Below are positions 6,944 to 15,389 of a stretch of 64,000 nt of DNA, piece after piece. The notes under the pieces were generated by a model. It was not told where the DNA came from. It did no database searches and saw only the letters and a program-made list of their open reading frames with translations. The position numbers were made by a program, and so were the translations under genes. The first letter of the stretch is position 1. Each line of letters begins with the position of its first letter. The DNA is from Candidatus Gastranaerophilales bacterium (GTDB taxonomy: Bacteria; Cyanobacteriota; Vampirovibrionia; Gastranaerophilales; Gastranaerophilaceae). The stretch lies in the NCBI GenBank assembly GCA_944325885.1, contig CALVBT010000006.1, positions 1 to 64,000 of the forward strand, written 5' to 3'.

Positions 6944-7438
6944 TTATGCAGCCCCGCCTGCAGCACCGGCTGCTCCATCTGCAGCGCCTGCGGCACCTTC
7001 AGCTGCACCGGCAGCTCCTTGTGCGCCGCCTGCTGCACCTTCAACGCCTTGCGCACCTTCTTTTGGTTTGCCTTTAAAAAGTTTTAATATAGGTGCAACG
7101 ACTTTTTCGTTAATAAAATCGCCTACAACAGCTACTGCTTTTTTGCCGTAGTATGTTGCTTGTTCTTTAAATTTTGCACCTTCTTCTAACGGTTTTGTTT
7201 TATCAAAGTTTTTGAATGCACCCACTTTGCCTCTGAGTATTGCTGCACCGCCTGCGAGAACGACTATTGCAGCAAGAGTTTTTGCAAACCAGTGGCTTTT
7301 CTTTTTCGGGGCAGGGCCGTATTGAGGACCCATCGGGCTGCTTGCTGCGGGCTGCGGCTGTTGTGCAACAGTAAAAGCAGGAGCTTTAGAGATTGTTGAT
7401 TGTGACATTGGTGTAATTGTTGAGAAATTTACTGACAT
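6944..7438 (-). CDS. MSVN-leader membrane protein with Ala/Gly tail
   Basis: 164 aa. Starts MSVNFSTITP, then a Pro/Gln/Ala-rich stretch, a basic KKKSHWFAK anchor, one membrane segment around residues 50-68, a Lys-rich amphipathic part, and a C-terminal ~35 residues made of GAA/EGAA/DGAA units. No family recognised. AAGGAG lies nine bases before the ATG. The leader resembles those of the genes ending at 28635, 34162, 41817 and starting at 50965. The tail is a tandem repeat at the DNA level and could vary in length between strains. Confidence 0.75.
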   Translation of the reverse strand: MSVNFSTITPMSQSTISKAPAFTVAQQPQPAASSPMGPQYGPAPKKKSHWFAKTLAAIVVLAGGAAILRGKVGAFKNFDKTKPLEEGAKFKEQATYYGKKAVAVVGDFINEKVVAPILKLFKGKPKEGAQGVEGAAGGAQGAAGAAEGAAGAADGAAGAAGGAA

Positions 7439-7645
7439 ATAAAAACACTCCTTTTATTAACACTTCTGAGCATACAAAACATATAAAGATAATTTATTGC
7501 CAATTTGGATAGTAATGCAGATAAATATGAAACATTTTGTAACATTGTAGCACTTTTTTTTATATTTTGGAATATTTTTTTTAAAAGTGTAATCATAGTT
7601 AATAGAGGCAAATTTACACTAAATATAAATGAAGGGTTAGTATAG

Positions 7646-10600
7646 ATGGATAAATTCGTAAATATAGAAAAAAATATAATAGAAAGCGCAAAAATAGTTT
7701 CTTGCAAAATTGATGATGCAGAATTGAGAAAAAGAGCCTATGCTCTTAATATAGCAGCCAATACCGTAGCAGAGTATCTCAATGCATCAGGTGTCCATAC
7801 GGATTCCAAATTGAGTCTTTTTAGAGTGCCTTCGTTTGCAAAAAATCTTGAGCTTGCCGATATTTACGTAAACGGTGCAAGATTTGATGTGAGAATTTCT
7901 TTTGACGGAAAAACTTTTTGCATTCCAAAAATCCATGAAAAATACGATGCACAGCCTTTTGCATATATTGTAATCAGCATTGATAAATCTTTAAAAACAG
8001 CAGAAATCTTAGGTTATGCACCTGTTAAAGATTTGAATTTGTCCAAAAATAATGCACAGTACTACTGTTTTGAAAATTCAGTATTAAAACCAATGGACGG
8101 TTTTAAGGAATATGCTCTCGGGCTTTCCGTAAAAATCCCGCCTTATTCATCTCTCGACCACGAAAAAATCAAAGACCTTTGCGCAGGATTTATAGACGAC
8201 CAGATTTCCGAAAGCGAAAAAATCTATTTTATAAAACACGTAATCTCCTGCCCTGTTTGCAGAGAGGCTTTTTGTGACATGAACGATTTTGATACAATCG
8301 TTTCTCAGTTGAAAAATTATAACGAACTTTTGAACGACAGCACTTTGAGCGTACTTTCAGGCAACAAAAAAGAGTTTGACGAAGCTTATATCGCAAATCT
8401 CGGCGTTGTGGAAAACGCAGTGGAAAATACTGCAGAACCGGCAGAGGAAAACGTTGAGGAAAGTGTGATTGAAGATGTAGTCGAAAATGTTGCTGAAACT
8501 GCTGCCACAACTGCTGCTGCAGCATTAGACGCTTCTATTGACGCTGCTGTATTGAAAGGTGTTATGAACGCTGCAGAAATGGCAGATACCTTGACAAATA
8601 CAGAGGAACCTGCTTCTGATGACAGCGAAGAAACTTCTGAACAGGAATTTTTAATGCAGGAAGATAACGAACAGCAAGATGCTTCCGAAGATGATGAAGA
8701 AACAGAAAACAATCTGCTGGAAGATGAGTCAGAGAATGCTGACCTGCCTGCTCTTGATATTGACGGGGCAGAAGACGAATTGCTCGTAGAAACTGACGGG
8801 GCTGACTTTTTGATGGAAGAAACAGCTCCAGAGTCTGAACCGGCAGAAGATATACAGGAGACCGAATCTCTGGAATTGGCAGAAGATTCTGCGCCGGAGC
8901 TTGAGCTTGAACAAAATGATTCTCTATTGCAGGAAAATGACTCCGAAAACGAAGAGCAAGAAGACCTGCAAGAGGAACAGCAAGAAGTACTGCAAGGGGA
9001 ACCGGCAGAGGAAGAAGCTCTTGAGCTTGCTCAGGACAATGATATTGATGCTTTGGAAACAGAAGAACCCTCACCGCTGCCGGAGCTGGATGGTGAAGAT
9101 TTGCTTCTTGCAGAAGATACAACGGAATCCGAAGCGTTGCAGGAACAAGAAAATGTGTCTTTAGAAGAAATTCAAGAATCCGCTCAAGAAACAGCAGAGC
9201 CGGAAATATCAGAAATGCCCGAACTGCTGGAAACTGACGGCAATGAAGAAGATTTGCTGCTGCAGGAGGATACAGCCGAGCCGGAAGAATTGGAAGAAAT
9301 AAAAGAAACAATGGATTTAGAAGAAGTTACAGAAACGCCTGAACTTCTAGAAGAAGAACCGCAAACTGAGGCTTCCGCTGAAGTGGAAGAACCTTTGCCG
9401 CTTTCTTCTGATGTGGATATAGCACTCGACGGTGACGATGATATGCTTCCGCCGGTTGATTTGGAAGATTTGGAACTTCTGGACGAAACAGCAGAACCCG
9501 AAGAACTGACAGAAGTTTCGGAACCTGAATTGGAATTGCAGCCAGCAGAGGAGGCCGAAGAATCTGGCTTAGAAGAATCTTCCATAGATTCTGATTTGAT
9601 TTCTCAAGAAGGCGATATTGATCTTAATATTGATGAAACAACTTCTGAAACAGGCTTTGAATCCGGATTTGACATTGGCTCTTCTGATATTGATATAAAT
9701 ACTCCGGATGCAGGCGATGACAGCTGGGTAAATGCTCAGGAAGATACCGAAGATACAACAACTGCTCAGTATTTTACTTTTGCAAGACCGGCTTCTGTTG
9801 ACGGGACTATAGATTCTTCGGAAGTAAGCGAACAGCCGCAGGCTATAGAGGATGATGATCCGTACAAACTTGATTCTGATGAGGAAGAAACAGGCTCTTA
9901 TCAGGAACCTGTAGAGTTAAAATATGATGATGAGGATGAAGATACGGAATCTGCAGAACCGATTCAAGCTGAACAAGACTCCGAATATCTTATCCAAAAA
10001 GATGAAGCTGAAATGGAGCAGGAAGTTCAAAATGAAGAAATCCAGAATCTTATGGATGATGACCTTTTTGCCCTGCTTTCCGATGACGACTCCGATTCTG
10101 TGCAGGCAGCTCATACTGTAGAGGCTGAAACTCCGGAAGAGGAAAACGCTTCTGCCCCTGCAGAAGGACAGACAGAGTCTGACGAAACAATAGAATCTTT
10201 GTTCGACAATCAAGATGGTGAACAATCACCAGACGGCGAGGAAAACGTTTTTGAACTTGCAGAAGAACCTGTCAGCCCTGCAAAAGCAGGAATTATTAAA
10301 AAGGCTGCAATTTCAGCAGGTGTGGTAGTGCTTCTTGCTGCAGCGGGTGCGGGTGCATGGTTTATGAACCATCAAAAAGCCGCAAATTCCGGTGACAATA
10401 TGGATTTAGCAAATCAGGGCGACCCTGTATTCGACTTCCAGAATCAGGGCAGCGAGCAGCCGGATACAGAGTCAGGTGCAGTTTCGCAGGATATAAACAA
10501 ATCAATGGCAAATTCCTTCTCTGACAAACCTGCTGCAATTACAATCACAAAAATTTCATGGCAGGTGAGCGAAAAACTTGCACAGGAGGCTTCTGTTAAG

Positions 10601-10876
10601 GAATATTTACAAACTGCAGGTAAAAATATTCAGATGAATTTACAAAATGATCTGGCAAATGCAGCAGATGTTCCGTTCAATACAAGCGTAAAAATCTCTG
10701 TAACACTGGCTCCTGACAACACCCTCAAAGGTATGCAGGTATTGGAATCCAGCGGTTCTGACAAAATCGATGAATCTATGTTAAGAAGTATTAAAAACAC
10801 TTTGAAATATGTAAGTGTGCCTAAATTAAAGGATTACAAGTCTGATTATTTCTTAACTTTAATTATAAATTTTTAA
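7646..10876 (+). CDS. DUF1822-like / zinc anti-sigma-like / TonB-like envelope protein, 1076 aa
   Basis: Residues 1-170 resemble the cyanobacterial DUF1822 family (NTVAEYLNASGV; PFAYIVISIDKSLKTAEILG). Residues 179-205 carry a zinc anti-sigma pattern, C179...H198-x3-C202-x2-C205, around FIDDQISESEKIYFIKH. Residues ~260-870 are extremely acidic and repetitive, with recurring LLxEDTAEPEEL units and no other fold. One membrane segment lies near 885-907, preceded by KK. The last ~110 residues end in a TonB C-terminal-like strand-helix-strand pattern (DESMLRSIKNTLKYV...YFLTLIINF). Predicted topology is N-terminus inside, C-terminus outside. The next gene is a sigma-like factor 54 bases downstream, so an anti-sigma role is inferred. 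GAAGGG lies ~10 bases before the ATG. Confidence 0.75.
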   Translation: MDKFVNIEKNIIESAKIVSCKIDDAELRKRAYALNIAANTVAEYLNASGVHTDSKLSLFRVPSFAKNLELADIYVNGARFDVRISFDGKTFCIPKIHEKYDAQPFAYIVISIDKSLKTAEILGYAPVKDLNLSKNNAQYYCFENSVLKPMDGFKEYALGLSVKIPPYSSLDHEKIKDLCAGFIDDQISESEKIYFIKHVISCPVCREAFCDMNDFDTIVSQLKNYNELLNDSTLSVLSGNKKEFDEAYIANLGVVENAVENTAEPAEENVEESVIEDVVENVAETAATTAAAALDASIDAAVLKGVMNAAEMADTLTNTEEPASDDSEETSEQEFLMQEDNEQQDASEDDEETENNLLEDESENADLPALDIDGAEDELLVETDGADFLMEETAPESEPAEDIQETESLELAEDSAPELELEQNDSLLQENDSENEEQEDLQEEQQEVLQGEPAEEEALELAQDNDIDALETEEPSPLPELDGEDLLLAEDTTESEALQEQENVSLEEIQESAQETAEPEISEMPELLETDGNEEDLLLQEDTAEPEELEEIKETMDLEEVTETPELLEEEPQTEASAEVEEPLPLSSDVDIALDGDDDMLPPVDLEDLELLDETAEPEELTEVSEPELELQPAEEAEESGLEESSIDSDLISQEGDIDLNIDETTSETGFESGFDIGSSDIDINTPDAGDDSWVNAQEDTEDTTTAQYFTFARPASVDGTIDSSEVSEQPQAIEDDDPYKLDSDEEETGSYQEPVELKYDDEDEDTESAEPIQAEQDSEYLIQKDEAEMEQEVQNEEIQNLMDDDLFALLSDDDSDSVQAAHTVEAETPEEENASAPAEGQTESDETIESLFDNQDGEQSPDGEENVFELAEEPVSPAKAGIIKKAAISAGVVVLLAAAGAGAWFMNHQKAANSGDNMDLANQGDPVFDFQNQGSEQPDTESGAVSQDINKSMANSFSDKPAAITITKISWQVSEKLAQEASVKEYLQTAGKNIQMNLQNDLANAADVPFNTSVKISVTLAPDNTLKGMQVLESSGSDKIDESMLRSIKNTLKYVSVPKLKDYKSDYFLTLIINF

Positions 10877-10930
10877 TTATATGATATGATATAATCAAGA
10901 TATTTAAAGTTTATAAAATGGATTGCGAAA

Positions 10931-11518
10931 TTGGATACTATACAAGCACAAAGAGAGCTTATAGAGAAGTTAGTAAAATCAAATAATAAATTCAGAGGCA
11001 ACGAAGATTTGCTTGAGGATTTTTGTTCAGAAACATACGAACGCTCGCATTCTTTGTTTGACAGTGTAGAAATAAAGGATATCGAGGGCTATGTTGCCAA
11101 AGTAGTGAATACGGCTATTTTGAATGTTCTTAAATCAAACGGCAGAGTCAGAAGAAGAGAGAATAAATATGTAAGTACAAAGGAAATTCTTATCAACCCG
11201 ATGCCCGTAAAAGCTGCTGTTGAACAGGAAACTGCTCCTGCTGCTGCCGGTGCTGTTGATTCTTTTGTATATGAAATTGAAGATCCAAAAGCTTCTTTTG
11301 AAGAAAAAATCGTAAGAAAAGATTTGCTGCAAAAGATTGTTGATATTGTTCTTGTTGCACAAAAAAACAATCCGACAAAAGAATATTTAAAAATCTTCTT
11401 TTTAAGATATGTCAAAGAGCTGAAACAAAAAGAAATTGCGCAGGAAACAAATCTTTCACAGAGCGAAGTAAGCAAAAGACTTGTTGAGATTTCTCAAATA
11501 GTTAAGACGCATTTCTAA
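10931..11518 (+). CDS. Sigma-70/ECF-like RNA polymerase sigma factor
   Basis: 195 aa. Start TTG at 10931 (an ATG 13 bases upstream is out of frame); the ribosome site is weak. The N-terminal ~75 residues fit sigma region 2 (EDLLEDFCSETYERS, YVAKVVNTAILNVLK), a low-complexity linker follows, and residues ~140-195 form a region 4 helix-turn-helix (FFLRYVKELKQKEIAQ, then TNLSQSEVSKRL). Size fits an alternative sigma factor. It follows the zinc anti-sigma-like gene by 54 bases, the classic partner arrangement though in reversed order. A phage-type or general regulator with the same fold is less likely. Confidence 0.72.
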   Translation: MDTIQAQRELIEKLVKSNNKFRGNEDLLEDFCSETYERSHSLFDSVEIKDIEGYVAKVVNTAILNVLKSNGRVRRRENKYVSTKEILINPMPVKAAVEQETAPAAAGAVDSFVYEIEDPKASFEEKIVRKDLLQKIVDIVLVAQKNNPTKEYLKIFFLRYVKELKQKEIAQETNLSQSEVSKRLVEISQIVKTHF

Positions 11519-11588: not shown

Positions 11589-14500
11589 ATGCGTTGTATA
11601 AAATGCAAAAAAGAAATAGACGACAATCTTTTGAGATGTAATTTTTGCAATACAAAAGTGCAGACGCCTTGTCCTGTCTGCGGCAGCATAAACCCTATAA
11701 CCGCCCAGTATTGTGCGCATTGCGGATTGCAGCTGCTAAAATACTGCCCGCATTGCAAATGCGTGAACCTTCCGGGGGCTGAAAAGTGCCGAAAATGCGG
11801 CGAGCCTTTTGATATGCAAAACGGCGAAATTTCTATTGCCGACCTTGAAAAACAGCTCAATGAAGATTCTCCGGAAACACCGCTTAAACAGGAAGATGAA
11901 GATAATAAAACCGCTGAACCCGCTCAAGAACCCGATGTAAGTCCCGTTAAAGAACAAGAGCCGATTGCTAAGCAGGAATTTGATGATATTCCTGTTGTTG
12001 ATATTGAACCGTTGGAACCCGTGCAGGCAGAAGAAATAGAGGATTTGCTTTTGGAATCTGATTCCGAAGAGGATTTTCAGCTTCAAGAACTGCAGGAAGA
12101 TGAGCTTCTGGACTTTTCAGACGGGGAAAATATTGATGAAGTTAAAGATACACAAGTTTCTCTTCAAAAACAGGAGCCTGTTTCGGACATGCTGACAGAA
12201 GAGCCGGAACCTGTCCAAAATATTCAGCCGGAAGGAGCTATGACATCTGCTTTGGATAGTTCGGATAATGACCTGCTCTCTTTGTGCGATTTGAGCGATG
12301 CAGCTGAAGAAACTATCACAGAGGAGTTGAAAAAAGCTGATATTAAACCTGACCCTATTATAAACGCTGATGCGGCACAAAATTACGTTGCACAAACAAT
12401 AAAAACCGCCCAACAAGAAGCAACCGCTATTAATCATATTGAAGACGCACAAAAAGAAATTCCGCACGAACAGGAACTTGCCCCCGAGAAGGAACAAGTG
12501 CCTGAGCCGGCTCTGAAACAGGAGCCTCCTGTTGAACAGCCGCAGCAAACAGCAGAACCCGCTGCACAGATACAGCAGCAAAGAGAGCAGCAAACACAGC
12601 AATCACAGCAGCAGGAGCAGCAGAGCGTTTCTGCTCGGGCAGAGGAAAGTTTTGAGCAGTTTGATGTGGATATAAAATCTTACAACCAGATGAAATGTAA
12701 GAATCTGATAGTGAATGCAATAAGAAAACCCGAAAAACTTATAATAGGGCTGAGTGCGCCCGAAGGTTACGGAAAATCTACTGTTTTAAAATATCTTTTC
12801 GGGGATTTGATGCACGAAAACTACGGCTGGCTGTGGGGTGAGTGCAGTGCAAACTCTCAGATAAGTCCTTTTGGCATTTTTCAGGAAATGATTTTGACAT
12901 TTTTTAATATGCCGAACTTTTCTAACATGTCGCAGGATTTTGTAAAACAGGCAAAACACATGCTCTCACAGACTTTTCCTTTCTTTTCACAGGAAGAGAT
13001 TTTTAACCTGTTTAACTTTTTGTATCCGTCTTTGACCTCAAATTACGAAGACATACTCGTGAACAAGGATTCTACCTTTGCACTTTTGGAAAAACTTATA
13101 CTCGAGCTTTCTAAAAAGGTAAAATTAATAATTGTCATAGATGATTTTGATATGATAGACGGTGCGTCTTATGCGTTCCTTTCATATTTTGTCGAGCAGG
13201 GTCATCTCGGAGAAAATATAAAGCTGATAATCTCATACAAAGACAACAGGATTACGCAGGGGTATTTTTATTCGGAAAAAATAGCGCAGAACCAGTACGA
13301 AGATATCAGACTTTCGAAACTGACAAAATCTGATGCGGACAACCTTGTGAAACTCTTTTTGAACGGTGTAAATCCGCTGCCTCAAGAGGTTTTTGAAAGG
13401 ATTTTCGAATATTCTGAGGGCAACAGTGCTTATATAGAACAAATAATGGTGCTGTTGAATGATTTTAAAGCCTTTAAGCAGGAGAACGGCACAATAACCT
13501 ACAAAACCACTCCTGTAGAGTCAAAAATGCCCAAAAATCTGTACGAAATTCTTTCTGTCAGAATCAATTATCTGCAAAAGAAATTTCCGCTCTGTTTCAG
13601 GACTTTATGCACAGCTTCAATAATGAGCAACAAATTTAATGTTAAACTGCTAGAAATTGTGATGAAGCTAAAACCGGAAGAGTTCCAAAACGTTATGCAG
13701 CTTTTGACCTCTTTTGTTTATGTTGCGCAGTTTAACAACAACATTTTTGAGTTTAAAAATACTCTGCTGTGGAAATTTGTTTATGAAAAGGCAAAACAAA
13801 ACAAAGATTTTGTAATGCTGAATGAAAAAATCTTTGATGTAATAAATTCGTTTACCCTCTCGAGCAATGCTCTCAAGGCACTGATTGCACAAAATTTGAA
13901 CCAGAAACTGCTGGCTTTGAATATTTGGACGGAAAATACAAAACTCTGCGCATATTTGGGCGATGAGCATCTTTGGACGCTTTCTCAAAAGCAGTGTCTG
14001 AAAATCGTACAGGAGATTCACCCTGACAATGATGAAATCATAGCCAACAATATTCAGGAGCGTCTGGGCAAAATGCTCTATTTGACCCGACCGTCAGAGG
14101 CTATTCCGCTTTTGTCAGCTGCAATCAGCAATGCTCTAAAAGTCGGCAACAGACCGAAGATAATCGAACTCTCCGGATATCTTTCAAAGAGCTGTTCTCT
14201 TACAGGCAACTATAACGGGGTAATTGAGGCTGTTGATGTGGTGCTGAAAATCATTGACACCCCGCAGAACAAACTCGAGAGCGCACTCATAAAATACAAA
14301 AAGCTAAAAGCAATGTTTTGCATCGGCAATGCAGAAGAGATTTACAATCTTGCAAGCAACGAAATTATTCCTGTTGTTGAGCAGGCACTGTCCAACCTTA
14401 TCCCCAACAACGGAATCTCTATGGACATTATTTACGAAACATGGCTGGAGTGTAACCTGATAGTTGTTATGGCACTTGTTTCGCAGGGGAACAACAAGAG

Positions 14501-15389
14501 CTTTGCCGTGCTAAAAGTTATTGATGAAATTATTGCAAAAAATAATGTGGACAACAAAAATTATCTGCAGCGTGTAGACCTTGCAAAAGCACTGGCATAC
14601 AGTGTTCAGGGCGATATTAAAAAGAGTGATGACATTTTGATTTCGCTTTCTCAAAAAACCAGCAAGGAAATTGTCGAGCCTGATGTAATTTCGCTGTGGA
14701 ATTTTACAAATATTTTGAACAAGCTCTACAAGCAGGAATGGCAGAATATAAAAGAGGATTTGTACTCTGTTGTGACTTTTGCAAACAACTACAATGACGT
14801 GCTTGTGAAAAATCTTTTGAAGGTATTTTTAGGCAAAATTTTGCAGGAAGAAGGCAATCTCTCAAAAGCACTGGAGATTTATAACGAGCAGGTGACAATT
14901 TTTGCCAGAGAAAAAATAGCCATAGGCGCATTGTTGTGCTGGTATTATATTGCAAAACTTACCCTTGTGACAGAAGGTACGGACAAGGCTCTTGATATTG
15001 CACAAAAGGCTCTTGAGGTGGCTAAGAATCCAAAAATTTCAAATTACTATTTTATGGTGCTGTACAAAAAACTCATTGCAGAAATCTTCTTGATAAAAGG
15101 AGATACGGAAGCTGCAAAAATGTATATAGAAAAAGCTCTGATGATAGTAAAACAGTACGATATGAAACTGTTAAAAATATCTTTGTACCAGCTTTATGCA
15201 AAGTATCTTGAGGAAATGCTCAATAAAAAACCTCAAAACAAAGCCAACTATGCCCAGAATGCTGTTGCTACATACAAAAAAGCACTCTCTTTGATAGAAC
15301 ATCAGGATATCCCAGCAATAAAAGAAGAGATAAACAAAAATTATGCCTCTTTTAGGGCATTTTGCCAGCTGAACAATATAAAAATATAA
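11589..15389 (+). CDS. Zinc-ribbon P-loop protein with acidic linker and helical repeats, 1266 aa
   Basis: Residues 1-75 hold consecutive zinc-ribbon CxxC knuckles (CIKC, CNFC, CPVC, CAHC, CPHC, CRKC). Residues ~85-355 are acidic and Gln-rich with EDLLLESDSEEDF-type motifs like those of the gene at 7646. An AAA/STAND-like ATPase follows, with Walker A GYGKST (393-398) and Walker B LIIVIDDFD near 512-520. The last ~500 residues are helical with TPR-like repeats (SKALEIYNEQV, ALDIAQKALEVAKN). This resembles large STAND-type signal NTPases: ligand or partner binding drives nucleotide-dependent assembly. No catalytic effector domain is visible. It follows the sigma-like gene by 70 bases; shared regulation is possible. 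Confidence 0.75.
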   Translation: MRCIKCKKEIDDNLLRCNFCNTKVQTPCPVCGSINPITAQYCAHCGLQLLKYCPHCKCVNLPGAEKCRKCGEPFDMQNGEISIADLEKQLNEDSPETPLKQEDEDNKTAEPAQEPDVSPVKEQEPIAKQEFDDIPVVDIEPLEPVQAEEIEDLLLESDSEEDFQLQELQEDELLDFSDGENIDEVKDTQVSLQKQEPVSDMLTEEPEPVQNIQPEGAMTSALDSSDNDLLSLCDLSDAAEETITEELKKADIKPDPIINADAAQNYVAQTIKTAQQEATAINHIEDAQKEIPHEQELAPEKEQVPEPALKQEPPVEQPQQTAEPAAQIQQQREQQTQQSQQQEQQSVSARAEESFEQFDVDIKSYNQMKCKNLIVNAIRKPEKLIIGLSAPEGYGKSTVLKYLFGDLMHENYGWLWGECSANSQISPFGIFQEMILTFFNMPNFSNMSQDFVKQAKHMLSQTFPFFSQEEIFNLFNFLYPSLTSNYEDILVNKDSTFALLEKLILELSKKVKLIIVIDDFDMIDGASYAFLSYFVEQGHLGENIKLIISYKDNRITQGYFYSEKIAQNQYEDIRLSKLTKSDADNLVKLFLNGVNPLPQEVFERIFEYSEGNSAYIEQIMVLLNDFKAFKQENGTITYKTTPVESKMPKNLYEILSVRINYLQKKFPLCFRTLCTASIMSNKFNVKLLEIVMKLKPEEFQNVMQLLTSFVYVAQFNNNIFEFKNTLLWKFVYEKAKQNKDFVMLNEKIFDVINSFTLSSNALKALIAQNLNQKLLALNIWTENTKLCAYLGDEHLWTLSQKQCLKIVQEIHPDNDEIIANNIQERLGKMLYLTRPSEAIPLLSAAISNALKVGNRPKIIELSGYLSKSCSLTGNYNGVIEAVDVVLKIIDTPQNKLESALIKYKKLKAMFCIGNAEEIYNLASNEIIPVVEQALSNLIPNNGISMDIIYETWLECNLIVVMALVSQGNNKSFAVLKVIDEIIAKNNVDNKNYLQRVDLAKALAYSVQGDIKKSDDILISLSQKTSKEIVEPDVISLWNFTNILNKLYKQEWQNIKEDLYSVVTFANNYNDVLVKNLLKVFLGKILQEEGNLSKALEIYNEQVTIFAREKIAIGALLCWYYIAKLTLVTEGTDKALDIAQKALEVAKNPKISNYYFMVLYKKLIAEIFLIKGDTEAAKMYIEKALMIVKQYDMKLLKISLYQLYAKYLEEMLNKKPQNKANYAQNAVATYKKALSLIEHQDIPAIKEEINKNYASFRAFCQLNNIKI

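Follow-up and report, generated by a model that had tools for sequence, protein, structure and literature searches.

A predicted membrane-anchored anti-sigma factor with a TolA/TonB-type outer domain and its putative sigma factor partner in the Gastranaerophilales

Background

The closest described counterparts of the system analyzed here are the class I anti-sigma factors of the zinc type (RsiW/SigW, RslA/SigL, ChrR and RsrA). Another relevant system is FecI-FecR-FecA, in which a membrane anti-sigma factor and a sigma factor of the extracytoplasmic function (ECF) type are tied to a TonB-related function. We analyzed a stretch of 64,000 nucleotides (hereafter, the window) from contig CALVBT010000006.1 of a Candidatus Gastranaerophilales bacterium (assembly GCA_944325885.1), in which the gene for an anti-sigma-like protein of 1076 amino acids (aa) is followed by the gene for an ECF-type sigma factor. 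The Gastranaerophilales are common gut relatives of cyanobacteria, and we know of no well-studied members of this order; no paper on a sigma factor from this group was found in the open-access literature.

The 1076-aa protein shares with the class I zinc anti-sigma factors an H-x25-H-x3-C-x2-C site, profile and fold similarity over about 60 residues, an adjoining sigma factor gene and, as in RsiW, a single membrane helix. It differs from them in that its anti-sigma domain is preceded by an additional DUF1822-like domain and leads into a very long acidic tract, and in the TolA/TonB-type domain that makes up its outer part. Likewise, the combination of a membrane anti-sigma factor linked to a TonB-related function with an ECF sigma factor resembles FecI-FecR-FecA, but FecR has no TonB-type end, whereas here a TolA/TonB-type domain is fused to the anti-sigma protein itself, and no plug receptor was found in the genome. 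No description of such a fusion was found in the literature, a weak absence given that only open-access papers were covered.

The N-terminal domain has its own relatives, the cyanobacterial DUF1822 proteins, which are homologous to residues 4-148 and also adjoin sigma factor genes: 21 of the 29 open reading frames (ORFs) neighbouring the stand-alone cyanobacterial genes encode sigma-70 family proteins, and the association of DUF1822 with ECF sigma factors in cyanobacteria has been noted previously (PMC8195603). The 24 cyanobacterial DUF1822 proteins that we aligned are, however, stand-alone proteins of about 310-500 aa, with a second half unlike the 1076-aa protein, and they lack the HxxxCxxC anti-sigma site, the acidic tract and the TolA/TonB end.

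Results

Architecture of the 1076-aa protein

Computational analysis provides good support for an ECF sigma factor paired with a membrane-anchored anti-sigma protein whose outer domain is of the TolA/TonB type. The elements of this pair are as follows.

7646-10876, + strand: multi-domain membrane anti-sigma-like protein, 1076 aa (ORF, Pfam profiles)
7646-8131, + strand: DUF1822-like domain, residues 1-162 (DUF1822 profile, AlphaFold2 model, matches to PD-(D/E)XK folds)
8141-8341, + strand: class I anti-sigma domain, residues 166-232 (RsiW profile and structure match, ligand co-variation)
8369-10285, + strand: acidic low-complexity tract, presumed cytoplasmic, residues 242-880 (composition)
10298-10366, + strand: single transmembrane helix, approximately residues 885-907 (hydropathy and flank charges, 30 homologues)
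10538-10873, + strand: TolA/TonB-type C-terminal domain, residues 965-1076, expected in the periplasm (TonB_2, predicted fold)
10931-11518, + strand: ECF-type sigma factor, 195 aa, TTG start (TIGR02937, Sigma70_r4 and Sigma70_r4_2, all above cut-off)
7569-7594, + strand: promoter-like motif GGAAT-N15-GTAATC, probable target of the sigma factor (motif counts across loci)

The anti-sigma assignment is based on several comparisons. With the zf-HC2 model of Pfam, the 1076-aa protein itself scores below the threshold (15.7 vs 22.2 bits, residues 174-206), and 18 of 30 orthologues are matched, with a best E value of 3.2e-6. When an alignment profile was compared to the solved structures, the best match was the anti-sigma-W factor RsiW (E 8.6e-5, residues 172-222), followed by weaker matches to DdvA and RslA; the predicted structure of residues 171-232 also matched RsiW (Z 7.0, with 59 residues aligned at 3.3 A) and, with a lower score, RslA (Z 5.9). 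In a positive control, this profile picked a zf-HC2 anti-sigma-like protein that adjoins a clear ECF sigma factor gene elsewhere in the genome.

The original prediction placed the zinc site at C179, H198, C202 and C205. The last three residues form the HxxxCxxC motif, which is retained in 42 of the 57 aligned N-terminal regions, but C179 is present in only 10 of these 42 and was rejected as a ligand in favor of H172, which co-varies with the motif, being found in 40 of the 42 sequences that keep HxxxCxxC and missing from all 15 others (Fisher 6e-12, a nominal value because the sequences are related). Because H172, unlike C179, tracks HxxxCxxC, the zinc site most likely consists of H172, H198, C202 and C205.

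For the N-terminal domain, the score of the DUF1822 profile (PF08852) is 24.5 bits, immediately below the cut-off of 25 (E 1.1e-5 in a search of one genome). This profile matches 16 of 30 orthologues, many of them well above the cut-off, with a top score of 47.8 bits, and the profile-profile comparison aligned residues 4-148 with cyanobacterial DUF1822 at E 8e-11, the similarity being confined to the first 148 residues. The AlphaFold2 model of residues 1-241 has a mean predicted local distance difference test (pLDDT) score of 91.3. For the model of residues 1-162, nearly all top matches were PD-(D/E)XK proteins, namely, Hjc and other Holliday junction resolvases and restriction enzymes, with a middling best Z of 8.5, which suggests a nuclease-like fold. 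We propose resemblance of fold and not nuclease activity: among the candidate active site positions, D72 is present in 55 of 57 sequences and D81 in 52, but the expected lysine is replaced by arginine (R83) in 51 of the 57. In a sister lineage (family f38, L215-L222), the loci analyzed encode DUF1822-like proteins of about 410 aa without sigma factor or TonB parts, in a conserved neighbourhood with a gene for a protein of about 480 aa and, in several loci, zinc-ribbon proteins.

The acidic tract spans about 640 residues, with 36% Asp and Glu, 1% Lys and Arg, no cysteine and a net charge of -223; in relatives, the anti-sigma domain and the helix are separated by 46-937 residues, which are acidic as a rule. 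The single hydrophobic helix lies directly ahead of the C-terminal domain. Because the flanking charges are more positive on the N-terminal side in most of the 30 homologues, the N-in topology is likely. The C-terminal domain scores above the TonB_2 cut-off of Pfam (24 vs 22 bits, residues 994-1076), as do regions of 24 of 30 orthologues, contains the invariant residues W972, S1036, G1037 and D1042, and is modelled with pLDDT well above 85, matching TolA (Z 9.4) and TonB (Z 8.1). The genome also encodes an Omp85 protein along with TonB, ExbB and ExbD, in line with a diderm host, and diderm envelope genes have been reported in Melainabacteria (PMC4040986). Thus, apart from the single replaced zinc ligand, the domain order that had been read from the ORF, including the long acidic linker, the single membrane helix and the TonB-like end, was borne out by the profiles, hydropathy and predicted folds.

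Conservation and pairing with the sigma factor

The N-terminal 231 aa of the protein are matched in 187 of the 192 genomes of the order, nearly always in a single copy, and in these 187 genomes, the respective ORFs range from 319 to 1389 codons. Further analysis revealed a copy in genus g16 as well (genome locus L224), with its own sigma factor and zinc-ribbon genes, so the few negative genomes may include diverged copies. The module is among the near-universal genes of the Gastranaerophilales; a scan of viral contigs detected no relative.

The product of the adjacent ORF, which starts 54 bp downstream, scores 49.4 bits with the NCBIfam sigma70-ECF model TIGR02937 (cut-off 42.9), and the Pfam Sigma70_r4 models are also above the cut-off; a single-sequence search against solved structures, which gave no match at E 0.01, was uninformative. 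Among 56 informative loci from several families of the order, picked for diversity and not at random, a sigma factor or sigma-like gene is next on the same strand in 49, of which 11 have the degenerate form of genus g14. In four genomes (G129, G133, G089 and G087), an intact sigma factor orthologue is encoded elsewhere and does not adjoin the module; in G161, the sigma factor is represented by a weak region-4 match only; in G015, the sigma factor is present and the partner protein was not detected; and in G105 and G110, homologues of neither were detectable. Given this synteny, together with the anti-sigma profile match and the promoter-like motif ahead of the operon, the proposed pairing with the neighbouring sigma factor is supported. 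Neither outcome that would have refuted the original prediction was observed: both the anti-sigma and the TonB folds are predicted, and the sigma factor gene is conserved next to the module in relatives.

The 11 genomes of genus g14 (L051 6667-8217, L195-L204) encode a sigma-like partner with an acidic insert of 245-515 residues between the sigma2-like and sigma4-like parts, whereas in the anti-sigma-like protein of this genus, the acidic tract is shorter. These sigma-like partners were not recognised by the curated Pfam and NCBIfam sigma factor models and the promoter-like motif is missing, so the system may have been repurposed in this genus. In L198 (5950-7363), the sigma-like gene appears as two overlapping ORFs, either a split sigma factor or an assembly error, and was not used.

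A conserved promoter-like motif

The motif was counted as GGAA[TC]-N15-[GT]NNNTC within 230 bp upstream. It is present in 27 of the 49 loci with an adjacent sigma factor gene but in none of the 7 loci that lack such a gene (p 0.011), and among 485 control upstream regions, only 4 contain it; this p-value is nominal because the motif was noticed in the same sequences in which it was then counted and because the genomes are related. In two further loci, L054 and L055, the motif lies about 440 bp upstream. Of 13 congeners, 12 have the stricter pattern GGAAT-N15-GTNATC exactly once in the genome, the other one having a copy with one mismatch, and in 6 of the 12, the coordinates place it just upstream of the anti-sigma-like gene. 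A single copy per genome ahead of the operon is the pattern expected from an autoregulated ECF sigma factor, which suggests that this sigma factor controls its own operon. When a wider regulon was sought in six congeners, allowing two mismatches, the matches looked like background.

Discussion

A probable route from the envelope to gene expression

We consider it fairly probable that the 1076-aa protein acts as a class I anti-sigma factor of the zinc type, anchored in the membrane and controlling the downstream ECF sigma factor through TolA/TonB-like envelope sensing, sigma factor release and autoregulation. Under this scenario, the cytoplasmic N-terminal part, comprising the DUF1822-like and anti-sigma domains, would hold the sigma factor by direct binding, and the long acidic, probably disordered tether and the single helix would connect it to the periplasmic TolA/TonB-like domain. 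That domain would sense the envelope, most likely, by passively receiving or contacting one of the envelope components. An alteration there, or the ensuing proteolysis, could then weaken the grip on the sigma factor which, once freed, would transcribe its own operon from the GGAAT-N15-GTNATC promoter. Given the conservation of the layout across the whole order, the module probably reports the state of the cell envelope to gene expression. The proposed trans-envelope switch thus keeps its transmembrane layout and its outer end with a TolA/TonB fold, the freeing of the sigma factor by an outer signal being a conjecture drawn from sequence, and loses the suggested pulling by the outer end, as detailed below.

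Several observations weigh against this scenario. The zinc ligands are lost in 15 of the 57 sequences while the sigma factor gene remains, although this is consistent with the existence of both zinc and zinc-free class I domains, the latter being common (PMC7406223). In two genomes of genus g22, the protein is kept and sigma factor matches are only weak. The promoter-like motif is absent from the loci of family f3 and genus g14 despite the adjacent gene, and neither a ligand nor a release protease of the module was identified. Finally, in five genomes, four of genus g12 (L032-L035) and one of g19 (L212), the DUF1822/anti-sigma part and the linker/helix/TonB part are separate ORFs, so that one continuous chain is not essential there.

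Should the envelope-sensing anti-sigma scenario hold, it would extend the range of outer ends known in membrane anti-sigma factors by a new kind, assign to DUF1822 the role of a partner domain in an anti-sigma module, and provide a compact, testable pair of a sigma factor and a promoter.

Alternative explanations

A tentative variant, to which we assign clearly less weight, retains the TolA/TonB-type domain as the envelope sensor and makes the acidic tract a functional element that either partner can carry, for example, an electrostatic gate or a nucleic acid mimic that would prevent the sigma factor from engaging RNA polymerase or DNA. The carrier of the tract is indeed the anti-sigma protein in most genera and the sigma-like protein in g14. 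The movement of the tract between the partners, along with the natural splits of the protein, amounts to evolutionary experiments that could reveal the role of acidic tracts in sigma factor control.

A more doubtful possibility is that the input is cytoplasmic, perceived either by the DUF1822-like, nuclease-fold domain or by the STAND-like ATPase encoded by the third gene of the probable operon, with the helix and the TolA/TonB-like end serving only as an anchor. The invariant residues P94, Y107 and G123 of the DUF1822-like domain (57 sequences) would fit such a role, and so would the cyanobacterial DUF1822 proteins, which stand alone, lack HxxxCxxC and adjoin sigma factor genes. However, conservation of the TolA/TonB-like end is as wide as that of the inner part, some residues of this end are invariant, and outside family f1, the third gene does not adjoin the pair.

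The idea that the outer end pulls, implying an energised transducer of the TonB/TolA type in which ExbB and ExbD drive the helix and an outer-membrane partner exerts the traction that releases the sigma factor, appears improbable. The protein does share with TonB and TolA the fold of the C-terminal domain and a single, likely N-in, helix; one ExbB and two ExbD proteins are encoded elsewhere in the genome, and the MotA/ExbB family was found in all 60 genomes searched. Nevertheless, it differs from these transducers in its large cytoplasmic part, and the S-x3-H pattern through which the TonB helix contacts ExbB is present in none of the 30 homologues, whereas the dedicated TonB of the genome has SAILH. 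The operon contains neither ExbB nor ExbD, a canonical TonB-ExbB-ExbD-ExbD cluster with a 401-aa TonB being located near an Omp85 protein and separately from the module (L119 4715-7570). The receptors are mostly absent as well: the TonB-receptor plug went undetected in the genome of the window and, in total, in 33 of the 40 genomes searched, with matches in 7. The splits of the protein into halves in five genomes also count against this idea. Taken together, the lack of S-x3-H, the separate TonB set and the missing plug make a passive contact the more likely role of the outer domain.

Equally improbable is that the protein, instead of inhibiting the sigma-like protein, serves it as a scaffold or a positive partner: the motif-less g14 pairs, with their acidic-insert sigma-like proteins, indicate that an ordinary sigma factor is not required for the pair to persist, but elsewhere an ordinary sigma factor of the ECF type is the partner, and the inner domain is similar to anti-sigma domains that act as inhibitors.

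Flanking genes

Two further genes accompany the pair.

11589-15389, + strand: zinc-ribbon/STAND-like/TPR protein, 1266 aa (DZR above cut-off; AAA_16 and TPR matches)
6944-7438, - strand: small divergent protein, 164 aa, with a single hydrophobic stretch (BLAST, and similar ORFs elsewhere)

The 1266-aa protein, encoded 70 bp downstream of the sigma factor ORF, combines a double zinc ribbon, an acidic tract, a STAND-like AAA ATPase and TPR repeats. In most loci of family f1, this gene is found in the same order, with gaps of 0-80 bp, and it is probably the third gene of the operon in this family.

The small divergent protein has BLAST matches in the same genus and in one related genus. Other genera have comparable short ORFs, also divergent, that begin with M..SVS.V.F.G and contain a KKK-hydrophobic segment, and in many genomes of the family, the module is flanked by such a gene. 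Between this gene and the promoter-like motif, at approximately 7520-7560, a block that is strongly conserved in the genus contains the imperfect palindrome TGAAACATTTTGTTACA beside TGTTATAAT (minus-strand reading); possibly, these are the operator and the promoter of the divergent gene.

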